Source of the DNA: Gemmatimonadota bacterium
GTDB lineage: Bacteria > Latescibacterota > UBA2968
DNA: 64,000 bases
Assembly: GCA_002727195.1 (NCBI GenBank)
Contig: PBWH01000030.1
Coordinates: forward strand, 68,112 to 132,111
Direction: 5' to 3'
The translations under genes were made by a program, and so were the position numbers. This document shows positions 8,004 through 19,575 of the stretch, piece after piece; positions within the stretch are counted from its first letter, which is position 1, and each line of letters starts with the position of its first letter. Under the pieces are notes generated by a model. That model searched no databases, was not told the DNA's origin, and saw nothing but the letters and a program-made list of their open reading frames with translations.

Positions 8004-8588
8004 TTATTGACTCACCAGCCGGATAGCAAGAAACCCACCGACGAGTATCACCACGAACGCAATCGACAGGATGTTGAAGTATTTGTCTATAAACGCCTTT
8101 ATACTCGGCCCGAACATCCGTATCAGTCCACCAACCAGGAGGAATCGACCGGCACGTCCCAGGATGGACGCCCCTACCAGAGTGGGGACACCGATATTGA
8201 ACACGCCGGCTGCGATCGTGAAGACCTTGTAGGGTATCGGCGTGAAGCCGGCGATCGCGATCGCGGCGAACGCGTTCTCCTGATACTTCTTACCGACTAG
8301 GTCGAACTTCTCCGTTACCCCATAGGCCTCGATGATCGGCTTCCCCGCACCTTCGAAGGCGTAGTAGCCAATGCCGTATCCAGCCACACCGCCGAGTACG
8401 GAGCCCGCCGTGCAGACGAGGGCATAGTAAATCGCCCGGCGAGGAGCCGAGATGGCCACTGCCATCAGCAGAACGTCGGGCGGAATCGGGAAGAAGGACG
8501 ACTCGGCGAAGGCGATCACAAAGAGGGCGGGAACCGCATAAGGGCTCTCCGACCATCCCATCACCCAATCATAGAGACGCCTGATCAT
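8004..8588 (-). CDS. YqaA/DedA-family (VTT domain) membrane protein
   Basis: A 194-residue polytopic protein of the SNARE-associated/VTT group, related to DedA proteins that act in membrane lipid homeostasis. The signature AESSFFPIPPDVLL near residue 30, a glycine-rich central segment (GGVAGYGIGYYAFEGAG) and GFTPIPYKVFTIAAG near residue 115 match YqaA-type members. The ATG at 8588 overlaps the stop of the upstream PilZ gene by four bases, implying translational coupling. The substrate is unknown. Confidence 0.85.
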   Translation of the reverse strand: MIRRLYDWVMGWSESPYAVPALFVIAFAESSFFPIPPDVLLMAVAISAPRRAIYYALVCTAGSVLGGVAGYGIGYYAFEGAGKPIIEAYGVTEKFDLVGKKYQENAFAAIAIAGFTPIPYKVFTIAAGVFNIGVPTLVGASILGRAGRFLLVGGLIRMFGPSIKAFIDKYFNILSIAFVVILVGGFLAIRLVSQ

Positions 8589-9060: not shown

Positions 9061-9951
9061 TCAGGTGCGCCCCGGGAACGTCAACTCAGCGACGCCCGAT
9101 TTATCCAGCTCACCTTTCCCGACCTCAATCATTTTACCAAACTGAGCCTTGGTCGCAACTGCCAGCGGGAGGTTCAGGCCGTGTTCGTTCGCCAATGACA
9201 GCGCGATGCCCGAGTCCTTGGCCGCGTGCGCGGACGAGAAATAACATTCGTGATCACGCGCTACCATGTCTTCACCATCGGTCTCCAGCACGCGTGAATT
9301 TGCGCCGGTCTGCGAGAAGACCTGCATCAGGATCTCGAGATCGAGCCCAAGCGCTGACCCCAAACCCAAGCCTTCGGCAAGGCCCGCCGTGTTGATGTTC
9401 ATCACCATGTTGACAAGTGCCTTGACCTGAGCCGCCTGCCCCGACGTACCAATATACTTCAGGTCCGTGCTCATCGAGTCCAGGATCGGCTTGACCTGGT
9501 CGAACACTGCCTGCTTACCGCCACACATCAGGTAGAGTGTTCCTTCGCGCGCCTGGGTGATGCTGCTGGCCATGCATCCTTCAAGGCTGCTCGCCCCGAC
9601 CTTCTCGCAGGCTGTCTCGACATCGACGTGCACCTGAGGCGTGATCGTTGCGCAGTTGATGAACACACGGCCACTCGCCCCATCGAGGAGCGAGTCACCT
9701 GAGTCGCCGAAGATCGCGTGCATAGCGGCATCGTCTGTCACCACGGTGATCACGACGTCCGCTCCGACTGTCACGCCGGCCAGCGTATCCGACGCCTCGC
9801 ATCCGAGCTCACTGGCCAGGGATGAGGCGAGATCGCCTGCGACATCGTAGACGACCGAAACGGTGAATCCGTCGTCCTTCAAGTGACGGGCGATATTGCT
9901 GCCCATCCGACCGACGCCTACGACGCCGATCCTGGTATCTTCCTTTGCCAT
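9061..9951 (-). CDS. NAD-dependent beta-hydroxyacid dehydrogenase (3-HIBDH/6PGDH-like)
   Basis: A 296-residue member of the 3-hydroxyisobutyrate dehydrogenase family, which oxidises short beta-hydroxyacids such as hydroxyisobutyrate or tartronate semialdehyde derivatives. The N-terminal dinucleotide-binding motif is GVVGVGRMGSNIA at about residues 7-19. The catalytic-lysine region is VKALVNMVMNIN (family pattern KlxxNxxxxxx). ATG 9951 is preferred over GTG 9969 because AAGGA lies five bases before it. The upstream DUF5069 gene is 59 bases away on the same strand, so the two are probably co-transcribed. The substrate is not determined. Confidence 0.88.
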   Translation of the reverse strand: MAKEDTRIGVVGVGRMGSNIARHLKDDGFTVSVVYDVAGDLASSLASELGCEASDTLAGVTVGADVVITVVTDDAAMHAIFGDSGDSLLDGASGRVFINCATITPQVHVDVETACEKVGASSLEGCMASSITQAREGTLYLMCGGKQAVFDQVKPILDSMSTDLKYIGTSGQAAQVKALVNMVMNINTAGLAEGLGLGSALGLDLEILMQVFSQTGANSRVLETDGEDMVARDHECYFSSAHAAKDSGIALSLANEHGLNLPLAVATKAQFGKMIEVGKGELDKSGVAELTFPGRT

Positions 9952-11535: not shown

Positions 11536-11612
<77 letters not shown>

Positions 11613-11841
11613 ACCTGTATACTCATATGCTCGGAACCGCATAAAATCAGCATTTCCATCGACTTGAAAGTTACCCCTTTGCACCGGACCCGTCAAGAAT
11701 CGAGTGTCAAAACCCGACAGTCGGTTCCATTCGAGAAAAAAGAAAAGCCGACGAAACCGAAGGCCGCCGGCCACACGCTACCTGTTGTCTCGCCTAGAAG
11801 TGCACCATCGTCCTGTTCTCTGTCACCACGACAGGTTCAGG

Positions 11842-12090
11842 TTAGTCCGAAAGCGTCAGGCGAAGCCTGATGTCGTCGATCATTTCCTTGGCGAAAGGGA
11901 CCTGCTGGAGGGCCATCTCTTCGGCACGCTGCGTACCTTACTCGGCCTCGCGGACTTCCTTCAGCCGACGACGGGCATTCTGGAGGTCGAGCTTGACCTT
12001 GTTGATCCATCGATGCAGCTTCCGCGACCCATCAGCCGTGTAGTACTTCGAGAAAAGGACAATAATCGCCCCGATAATCACCCAGAACAT
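11842..12090 (-). pseudogene. One-TM coiled-coil protein, paralog 2, interrupted by an in-frame TAA
   Basis: From ATG 12090 the frame encodes 50 residues: a TM segment (MFWVIIGAIIVLFSKYYT) and a charged helix ending KEVREAE, then TAA at 11938-11940. The same frame continues for 31 more codons to a second TAA at 11842. This continuation aligns without gaps to the upstream paralog (KEMIDDIRLRLT here, KETIEDLEIRLT there). The stop falls at an alignment column where the paralog has Glu, so a single GAA or GAG to TAA change explains it. Either a recent nonsense mutation shortened the protein to 50 aa, or the stop is read through. The 50-residue product may still be made. Confidence 0.7.
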
Positions 12091-12100
12091 CGCAGAACTC

Positions 12101-12409
12101 TTAGAAAGGTCGTGCCGATGGCGCTCCATCGGAGACCAACACCTGATCTTCCCGCTCTTCGTTCGCAGTGGTCAGTCGGATCTCCAGATCCTCGATGGTC
12201 TCTTTGATTCTTCGGACGCGCTCTTCAAACACGTCCTCTTCTTCACGCGCCTTCTCGGTATCGTTCTGGGCGTCGGACAACTTGCCCTTGACCTGCGTGA
12301 GGTCTTCCTTCACCCGCTGGAGCCGGCGCTCCAATTTCCGCATTTCCACCGCGGTATAATACTTCGCGATGAAAACGCCAAGCAGGCTGAACAGTAGCCA
12401 GTAAAGCAT
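12101..12409 (-). CDS. One-TM coiled-coil protein, paralog 1
   Basis: A 102-residue protein: N-terminal TM helix (MLYWLLFSLLGVFIAKYYT), then a long highly charged heptad-like helix with ERRLQRVKEDL and EERVRRIKETIEDL. ATG 12409 is preferred over GTG 12418 because AGGTGG lies five bases before it and the paralog starts at the same alignment position. The paralog follows after a 10-base gap. Both lie at the 3' end of the Mla/permease gene run, suggesting an envelope role; the function is unknown. Confidence 0.75.
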   Translation of the reverse strand: MLYWLLFSLLGVFIAKYYTAVEMRKLERRLQRVKEDLTQVKGKLSDAQNDTEKAREEEDVFEERVRRIKETIEDLEIRLTTANEEREDQVLVSDGAPSARPF

Positions 12410-12540
12410 CGAGTCCACCTGTGGGGAGAGTGACGGAGGTCGTTCTTGGACGTAATTACGGCTTCTGCCGGTCTATCGGCAGCGACTCAAACAATAGGTC
12501 AAGCGCCATGACAAGTCAATATGCGCTCCGTAAGTCATTG

Positions 12541-13786: not shown

Positions 13787-14671
13787 CTACCGCTCAGAGC
13801 TGAGGAAGTTCTCTGCCTGGAGGTCGACGTCGAACACACGGATCGACCGCCTGGGTCGTGTGACCGAACGATATTCCCCGATCAGTTCCGGAATGTCGTC
13901 CCCATCGAGGTCGGCGTAGCCGATGGTCTGCCCGAAGCCGTCCTGCCACTGCCACTCGACACGCTGAAAGGCAGCATCGACGACGAAGCCAGTGTTGAGC
14001 GCGATTTCTAGGATGCCGTCGTCGTCTAGATCGGCCACGACAATGCTCTGGGCGCTCAGGCCCTGCTCTGTGCTCCACTCCATGAAGAGGTTGAGGCAAT
14101 CGTAGACGTAGAGCCGCGCGATCTGCGACTCACGATCTGCTTCGAGCTCTCCCGGCGCTGCACCACGGAAGGACGGCTGAAAACTCGCCACATCGGCCAC
14201 ACTCTCGGCGGTGAACACCATCTCCAGCTGTGCATCATCGTCGACGTTCTCCACGACCATGCTGGAGATCGTCTTGAACTCGTCATCTGTGCTGCGCCAG
14301 AGTTCCTGGTAGTCATCTGCGCGGAAGATAATGATCTCACCCAGCTCCGTGTAGGCCACGATCTCGACCTTCTCGTCGTCGTTGACATCCCGCACGAAAA
14401 CTTCGGCGATCGGGCCACGCAGCTTGGGGCTTACCCATTCTTCCTGGAACCGCCCGTTCTTGTGACGAACGGAGTGGACCAGTCCGAGACGGTCGCCATA
14501 AACGATGCGCACATCTCGGGCCTCCTCGTCGTGGATGAGACGAACGGCGTGCATCTCATGCACAAATCCGCCGATATCAATCTCTCCGTGGTTCTGGAGC
14601 AGATACCAATCCAGATCGCCAGCGAAGGCGCTACCGGACAGGAACAGGGAAGCCGCAAGAAAGATGCGCAT
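13787..14671 (-). CDS. Secreted FG-GAP/VCBS beta-propeller protein
   Basis: A 294-residue exported protein with a signal peptide (MRIFLAASLFLSGSAFA, cleavage after AFA). It contains four Asp-rich repeats, RDVNDDEKVEIV, ENVDDDAQLEMV, ADLDDDGILEIA and ADLDGDDIPELI, the calcium-binding loops of FG-GAP/VCBS propeller blades. Such proteins bind ligands or partner proteins outside the cytoplasm. It lies between mlaD (13-base gap) and the AI-2E permease (4-base gap), an unusual companion for an Mla system. A structural or substrate-handling role at the envelope is inference. Confidence 0.8.
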   Translation of the reverse strand: MRIFLAASLFLSGSAFAGDLDWYLLQNHGEIDIGGFVHEMHAVRLIHDEEARDVRIVYGDRLGLVHSVRHKNGRFQEEWVSPKLRGPIAEVFVRDVNDDEKVEIVAYTELGEIIIFRADDYQELWRSTDDEFKTISSMVVENVDDDAQLEMVFTAESVADVASFQPSFRGAAPGELEADRESQIARLYVYDCLNLFMEWSTEQGLSAQSIVVADLDDDGILEIALNTGFVVDAAFQRVEWQWQDGFGQTIGYADLDGDDIPELIGEYRSVTRPRRSIRVFDVDLQAENFLSSER

Positions 14672-18350: not shown

Positions 18351-19223
18351 TTACAGGAGATCGTGCCAGTTCTCGCCGGGAATCCGTTGCTTCAGGTGTC
18401 GCTTGAGTTTGCCCAAGGCACGGTTTCGAATCTGCCGGACACGCTCCCGAGTCACCCCTAGGTTGCCCCCGATTTCGCCGAGCGTTCGCCGGTCGTTCCC
18501 GTCGAGGCCAAAGTAGGCGCGAATCACCTCTCCCTCTCTCGGATCGAGACAACTCGTCAGCGACTCCTTTACAAGGTTCGAGCGGTTGAGATCGTCGACG
18601 AGCACATCAGGCTCAGGTCCGTCGGTCTTGAGCACCTGCAGGAGATTCAGTTCACCGGATGGCTCGATCGGAGACTCCAGAGACAGGTCGGCCCGTACGC
18701 AGCGTAGGGCGCGCTCGGCCCGCTTCCGGCTGATTTTCATGTCCAACGCCACCTCTTCGAGCGTCGGGACGCGGCCCAGTTCCTGCGTCATTTGGCCCCA
18801 TCGCCTGGCAAGGCGGTCCATATCCTCTTGACGGTTAGCCGGCATGGTGACCGTGGAGGTCTTCTTGAGCGCATTCAGGATCGCCTGACGGATCCACCAG
18901 ACCGCATAGCTGATGAACTTGAAGCCCCGCTTCTCGTCAAACCGCTTAAGCGCTTCGATCAGCCCTACGTTACCTTCAGCGATCAGGTCGGAAAGCGGCA
19001 CCCCGCGCCCCTGATATTCAAGCGCGACGCTCACGACAAACCGAAGGTTGGACGTCAGGATGGACTCGACAGCCTTAGAGTCCCCCTTCCGGGCACGCTG
19101 AAGCGTCTCCACCTCCTGCTGACGGGTCATTGGAGGGTAATTCCTGAGTTCCTTCAGGTATCGCTGAACGGACGCTTCGTTGTCGAATCGTCTGCGATCG
19201 CTATCTCCGCGGTCGTGCTTCAA
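18351..19223 (-). CDS. RpoD-like sigma-70 factor (group 2 type)
   Basis: A 290-residue sigma factor that lacks region 1.1. Region 1.2 begins near VQRYLKELRNYPP. Region 2 contains GNVGLIEALKRFDEKRGFKF and SYAVWWIRQAI. Region 4 contains a helix-turn-helix with GVTRERVRQIRNRAL. The TTG at 19223 was chosen because AGGAGG lies seven bases before it; the open frame runs ten codons further upstream. A perfect -35 TTGACA (19283-19288, minus strand) lies upstream, but the -10 at 17-base spacing (TCTTAG) is poor. It could be the primary or a stress sigma; the short N-terminus favours group 2. Confidence 0.92.
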   Translation of the reverse strand: MKHDRGDSDRRRFDNEASVQRYLKELRNYPPMTRQQEVETLQRARKGDSKAVESILTSNLRFVVSVALEYQGRGVPLSDLIAEGNVGLIEALKRFDEKRGFKFISYAVWWIRQAILNALKKTSTVTMPANRQEDMDRLARRWGQMTQELGRVPTLEEVALDMKISRKRAERALRCVRADLSLESPIEPSGELNLLQVLKTDGPEPDVLVDDLNRSNLVKESLTSCLDPREGEVIRAYFGLDGNDRRTLGEIGGNLGVTRERVRQIRNRALGKLKRHLKQRIPGENWHDLL

Positions 19224-19575
19224 CAGCCGTCCTCCTGTTTGTCGTGGGTGCACTTCACGCTAAGAGTGAAACGCACGAGGGTTGTCAAGGTTCCTTGCCC
19301 ACGATTACGAGTGCCCGAGCCTGCTTAAACCCCTCTTAGACAACATGTTAGGGCTATCTTTTTTAGAAACATGCGACCCAGAATACTCCCCGGACCTCAA
19401 CCCTTGTATCGGCAGAGTTCCTTGTTAAATCTAGCGATGAGTTGCGCTATTTGTGACCAGGCTCCACCCGAAAGATACCCCAGAACGCTTGAAATCCGTC
19501 AGTGGCGTACATAGCAGAAGCCCTCCGGGATGATTCCCGAAGGGCCTCTGCCGTAGTCGTCCAACCTACGGAAAC
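19224..19575. other. Intergenic region before the sigma gene, with a strong hairpin
   Basis: The region holds the sigma upstream sequences. On the far side is a long perfect hairpin (19514-19530 with 19535-19551) just downstream of tRNA-Arg on the minus strand. It lacks a strong T-tract but probably ends the hup-tRNA transcript. Confidence 0.55.

Follow-up and report, generated by a model that had tools for sequence, protein, structure and literature searches.

Probable loss by nonsense mutation of one of two tandem genes for small membrane-anchored coiled-coil proteins beside an Mla operon in Latescibacteria

Introduction

Why does a gene carry an in-frame stop codon in the middle of a sequence that remains recognisably homologous to its intact neighbour? 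The case arises in a 64,000-nucleotide stretch of the genome of an uncultured member of the Latescibacteria (G000, contig G000:C8), hereafter called the window, in which two small paralogous genes, p1 and p2, lie in tandem downstream of a set of Mla genes. An earlier sequence-only reading attributed the stop in p2 to a single recent nonsense change, a sequencing error or stop-codon read-through. Comparison with related genomes allows these possibilities to be weighed against one another.

Results

All features of the locus lie on the minus strand of the window. The genes for MlaE (17156-16383), an MlaF-like ATPase (16350-15586), MlaD (15686-14685) and an FG-GAP-like protein (14671-13787) run in the same direction as p1 and upstream of it, with a gene for an AI-2E family transporter (PF01594; 12541-13839) directly preceding the pair. 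The intact paralog p1 (12101-12418) encodes 105 amino acids from a GTG at 12418 or 102 from an ATG at 12409, the latter being the start that matches its ortholog (70-71% identity) in Latescibacteria bacterium UBA6620 (G001; DJHM01000054.1, G001:C52), which is of the same family as G000 but of another genus. Its stop codon is TAA, and the start of p2 follows 10 bases further on with no coding overlap, an arrangement that is much the same in UBA6620. The shortened reading frame of p2 comprises 50 codons and a TAA (11938-12090), its ATG at 12090 coinciding with the start of the UBA6620 ortholog, which gives no support to the longer version that the ORF finder begins at 12129. Translation of the minus strand over 12090-11836 gives MFWVIIGAIIVLFSKYYTADGSRKLHRWINKVKLDLQNARRRLKEVREAE, a first stop (TAA, 11940-11938), GTQRAEEMALQQVPFAKEMIDDIRLRLTLSD and a second stop.

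Both proteins have one membrane helix, the KYYTA motif and a long charged helix, which in p1 is followed by a short acidic tail. The first TAA of p2 leaves the membrane helix, KYYTA and the beginning of the charged helix, which would be the whole of the product if one is made. In the family alignment the two paralogs align without a gap from KYYT to RLT, over 65 columns, and the TAA fills exactly one of these, where p1 has Glu; beyond it the alignment with p1 continues in frame, with 31 codons (11845-11937) that are still recognisable although untranslated in that frame. When p2 is read through its stop and used as a query within G000, p1 is matched at E = 1.4e-9, well above chance. The shared layout, the gapless alignment and the stop within it had been correctly described from the sequence alone.

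The intact counterpart of p2 is found in UBA6620, where gene order is as in G000 from an HU-like gene, through MlaE, to a tRNA-Pro (GGG) gene, and both p1 and p2 are present. Here p2 has no internal stop and is open for 102 codons from the same start; it is 63% identical to p2 of G000 over 81 residues. Comparison with orthologs had been proposed as a check, and the UBA6620 gene reads through the positions of both stops, so that the stop is not shared and, among the genomes compared, is specific to the lineage of G000, the sole genome of its genus in the comparison, in which variation within populations is invisible. At the first TAA the UBA6620 codon is TTC (Phe). The Glu of the stop column is thus a feature of p1 that the nearest relative of p2 lacks, and a single change from Glu is not suggested. 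The second in-frame TAA (11842-11844), at which the sequence-only reading had let p2 end naturally, is also premature, since UBA6620 has GAA there and its frame runs 20 codons further. In G000 this second stop is followed by 15 codons, PEPVVVTENRTMVHF, and a TAG at 11796-11794; this segment (11794-11841) is probably a remnant of the C-terminal tail, the homology being suggestive in that it weakly resembles the tail of the family (P = 0.013 against shuffles). A GC-rich hairpin with a T run lies at approximately 11731-11775, in the same place as a perfect terminator hairpin in UBA6620. Its stability in G000 corresponds to z = -1.27, that of its counterpart to z = -3.33, and a consensus scan of structure did not report the hairpin. 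The locus is bounded downstream by the tRNA-Pro (GGG) gene (11536-11612), a boundary that is conserved.

Rates of replacement show signs that the segment of p2 after the stop is decaying and that the segment before it changes no faster than p1. Between G000 and UBA6620, pN in p2 rises from 0.17 ahead of the stop to 0.31 beyond it, against 0.19 and 0.16 for the matching parts of p1; before the stop, pS is 0.69 for p2 and 0.55 for p1. These contrasts rest on 31 codons and on uncorrected P values near 0.03 (Fisher's test, P = 0.028 for p2 before versus after the stop and P = 0.033 for p1 versus p2 after it), and the same comparisons on amino-acid differences give P = 0.037 and P = 0.078. On a fixed topology, the p2 branch leading to G000 measures 0.26 before the stop and 0.71 after it, and that leading to UBA6620 0.11 and 0.12; the upstream segment of p1 measures 0.28 on the G000 branch. 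Past the stop, Arg67, an Arg in all nine comparison members, has become Gln in p2 of G000, and two residues further a helix-breaking Pro stands in place of Arg. Ahead of the stop, too, p2 of G000 reads HRW for HRR, with Trp at an Arg that is invariant in the other members, and has Asp just past KYYTA at a position that is mostly hydrophobic elsewhere. When the loss of constraint is placed on the G000 branch it covers about half of that branch, with a 90% interval of 0.03 to 1.07.

A scan of genome contigs with a narrow alignment returned only UBA6620 and a genome deposited as 'Gemmatimonadetes bacterium' SP138 (G020; PAQK01000005.1, G020:C5), which belongs to the same order as G000. The p2 remnant of SP138 follows p1 and precedes what is left of the same tRNA-Pro gene, and 86 residues of it can be aligned only by allowing three frameshifts, with a frameshift-aware score of 147 against a maximum of 34 in 30 shuffles. 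Genes upstream on the contig read through, which makes general assembly noise unlikely there. The remnant shares with p2 of G000 its position after p1 and its branch of the tree, but differs in carrying frameshifts rather than nonsense codons and in the truncation of the tRNA-Pro gene that follows. The tRNA-Pro (GGG) of SP138 (L053, about 9858-9910) is cut short beside the frameshifted p2, and ARAGORN found no tRNA-Pro at that site. In the tree, the p2 copies of G000, UBA6620 and SP138 form a single branch (support 94/86), so the duplication predates them; the p2 branch length is 0.71 for G000 and 0.21 for UBA6620. Independent loss of p2 on at least two occasions, by nonsense mutation in G000 and by frameshifts in SP138, is the best reading of these data.

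The family itself is unrecognised, as had been noted from the sequence. No Pfam or NCBIfam model reaches its cut-off, the matches in that search being weak ones to scattered coiled-coil families that differ between members, and a search of solved structures gave no close match, only a weak one to a prefoldin coiled coil. PspB was considered as a candidate relative and rejected. It is a small inner-membrane coiled-coil protein of similar size to p1 and p2, likewise with one membrane helix followed by a charged helix, but it has no sequence relationship to them: hhalign gives PspB (PF06667) a probability of 2.8% over 19 membrane residues, and family members do not match the PF06667 profile while a control PspB sequence does. 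Matches to the family at E of 1e-6 or better occur in 14 of the 64 genomes of the phylum, all in one class, and close members in five genera of the order. These proteins, membrane-anchored and coiled-coil, thus make up a small family that has no name and that in this comparison occurs in a single class of Latescibacteria. A third paralog of G000, p3, is intact and lies outside the Mla locus (G000:C5:44701-44979; L049, about 8199-8471), with counterparts in UBA6620 (G001:C59) and SP138 (G020:C43). The p3 genes of G000 and UBA6620 have some common neighbours 2-7 kb downstream; no gene context shared among p3 and the family copies of two further genomes (G003 and G004) was found. AlphaFold predicts p1 to be one helix spanning residues 2-95 (mean pLDDT 80, pTM 0.35, from an 8-sequence alignment), a model that says little about partners. 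Membrane proteins generally follow the positive-inside rule, and the positive residues that come after the membrane helix point to a cytoplasmic location of the charged helix.

Discussion

We consider it very probable that p2 arose long ago by tandem duplication of a gene for a small membrane-anchored coiled-coil protein and was disabled by nonsense mutation in the lineage of G000. The intact protein, as represented by UBA6620, has about 102 residues, which form an N-terminal membrane helix, a turn at KYYTA, a long charged helix and finally a short acidic tail, and the charged helix would be expected to pair in the cytoplasm with its own copies or with p1. In G000 translation ends after 50 residues, the sequence past the stop being a fossil that appears to be losing conserved residues and has acquired a second stop. 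The loss may have been tolerated because p1 and p3 presumably cover the function. Pseudogenes derived from tandem duplicates are ordinary in bacteria, and p2 resembles them in its premature stops, its relaxed constraint past the stop and the intact paralog adjoining it, as well as in the intact homolog that a relative has at this locus. It differs from them in that its N-terminal part still looks constrained: the upstream part evolves like p1, yet includes the Trp and Asp changes. A literature search on Latescibacteria and pseudogenes found nothing relevant. Of the original proposal of a single recent nonsense change, the lineage-specific nonsense mutation is borne out by the open syntenic ortholog, whereas neither 'single' nor 'recent' is well borne out, given the two in-frame TAAs and the lost constraint after the first of them.

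The constraint on the upstream segment leaves room for a variant of this explanation, in which the 50-residue stub is still in use, perhaps by pairing with p1 as its short partner, and only the part past the stop is dead. The two readings share the nonsense truncation, and the confidence placed in one overlaps with that placed in the other. Before the stop p2 resembles p1 in both pN and pS, pN rises only beyond it, and the G000 branch shows the same pattern; the start codon and the close coupling to p1 are retained, and a fully dead gene with an old stop would not be expected to keep the upstream rate of p1. However, the stub has Trp at the invariant Arg and Asp after KYYTA, is without the second half and its conserved residues (Arg67, Ile75, Asp77, Arg81) and is seen in no second genome, and the upstream constraint may simply be older than the stop. 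We therefore regard a working stub as possible but doubtful. The more specific proposal, that the stub is a selected half coiled coil that pairs with p1 and modulates it, such that a nonsense mutation made a regulatory partner from a duplicate, is more speculative still and seems to us improbable.

The remaining readings leave the nonsense-disabled duplicate as the preferred account. Read-through or recoding of the stop, giving a full p2 of 81-82 residues, would agree with the homology that runs in frame across the TAA, but a site of this kind should have a stop conserved in orthologs and constraint on both sides, whereas the nearest ortholog has the sense codon TTC and conserved residues past the stop are being lost. 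Ribosomes would have to pass two TAAs in the ancestral frame, no stable RNA structure was found after the first (z = +1.1), and neighbouring genes use TAA as their normal terminator, all of which makes read-through exceedingly unlikely. A reassigned TAA was rejected on similar grounds: p1, MlaD and the sigma factor end in TAA exactly where UBA6620 has another stop, and the AI-2E gene ends in TAA close to the UBA6620 end point, so the standard code applies. A sequencing or assembly error might be entertained for a metagenome assembly of 38 contigs with 7% estimated contamination. Yet TTC to TAA takes two base differences and the second TAA takes more, no frameshift is seen, the neighbouring genes are intact, and an error at the first stop would leave the second TAA and the excess of replacements after the first unexplained; we judge this very unlikely. 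Little can be said for a split gene that restarts at the in-frame ATG eight codons past the stop (11916-11914) to make a separate 24-residue peptide, since this ATG is preceded by no suitably spaced Shine-Dalgarno sequence and the peptide would have no membrane helix and, compared with the ortholog, would itself be cut short at the second TAA. That reading, too, has next to no probability. The stop codon is thus best seen as ordinary gene decay, a real feature of an ordinary kind, which removes a false lead towards read-through or an alternative code.

In G000 an Mla-type operon does end with the pair, as first described, but the pair is an addition to it: relatives keep the operon without the pair. 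In two genomes of the comparison (G016 and G019) the AI-2E gene is followed directly by the tRNA-Pro gene, without p1 and p2; in genus g3 the FG-GAP gene is followed by the tRNA-Pro gene and the family is absent altogether; and other family members are located outside the Mla locus. A core Mla component would be constantly present in the operon, and the family is on this basis an accessory of the locus.

At the upstream end of the locus, a primary-type sigma-70 family gene (18351-19253, minus strand; 300 aa, regions 1.2 to 4) directly precedes a BrkB-like gene and mlaE, an order kept in UBA6620 and SP138. The FG-GAP-like gene (13787-14671 on the minus strand) that follows mlaD encodes a probably exported product, possibly a beta-propeller. 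Its homologs occur in 19 of the 21 genomes of the order and follow mlaD in all those inspected with enough flanking sequence (G000, G001, G005, G016, G019 and G020), G016 having two such genes in tandem. The FG-GAP-like protein may be a partner of this Mla system that has so far gone unrecognised.
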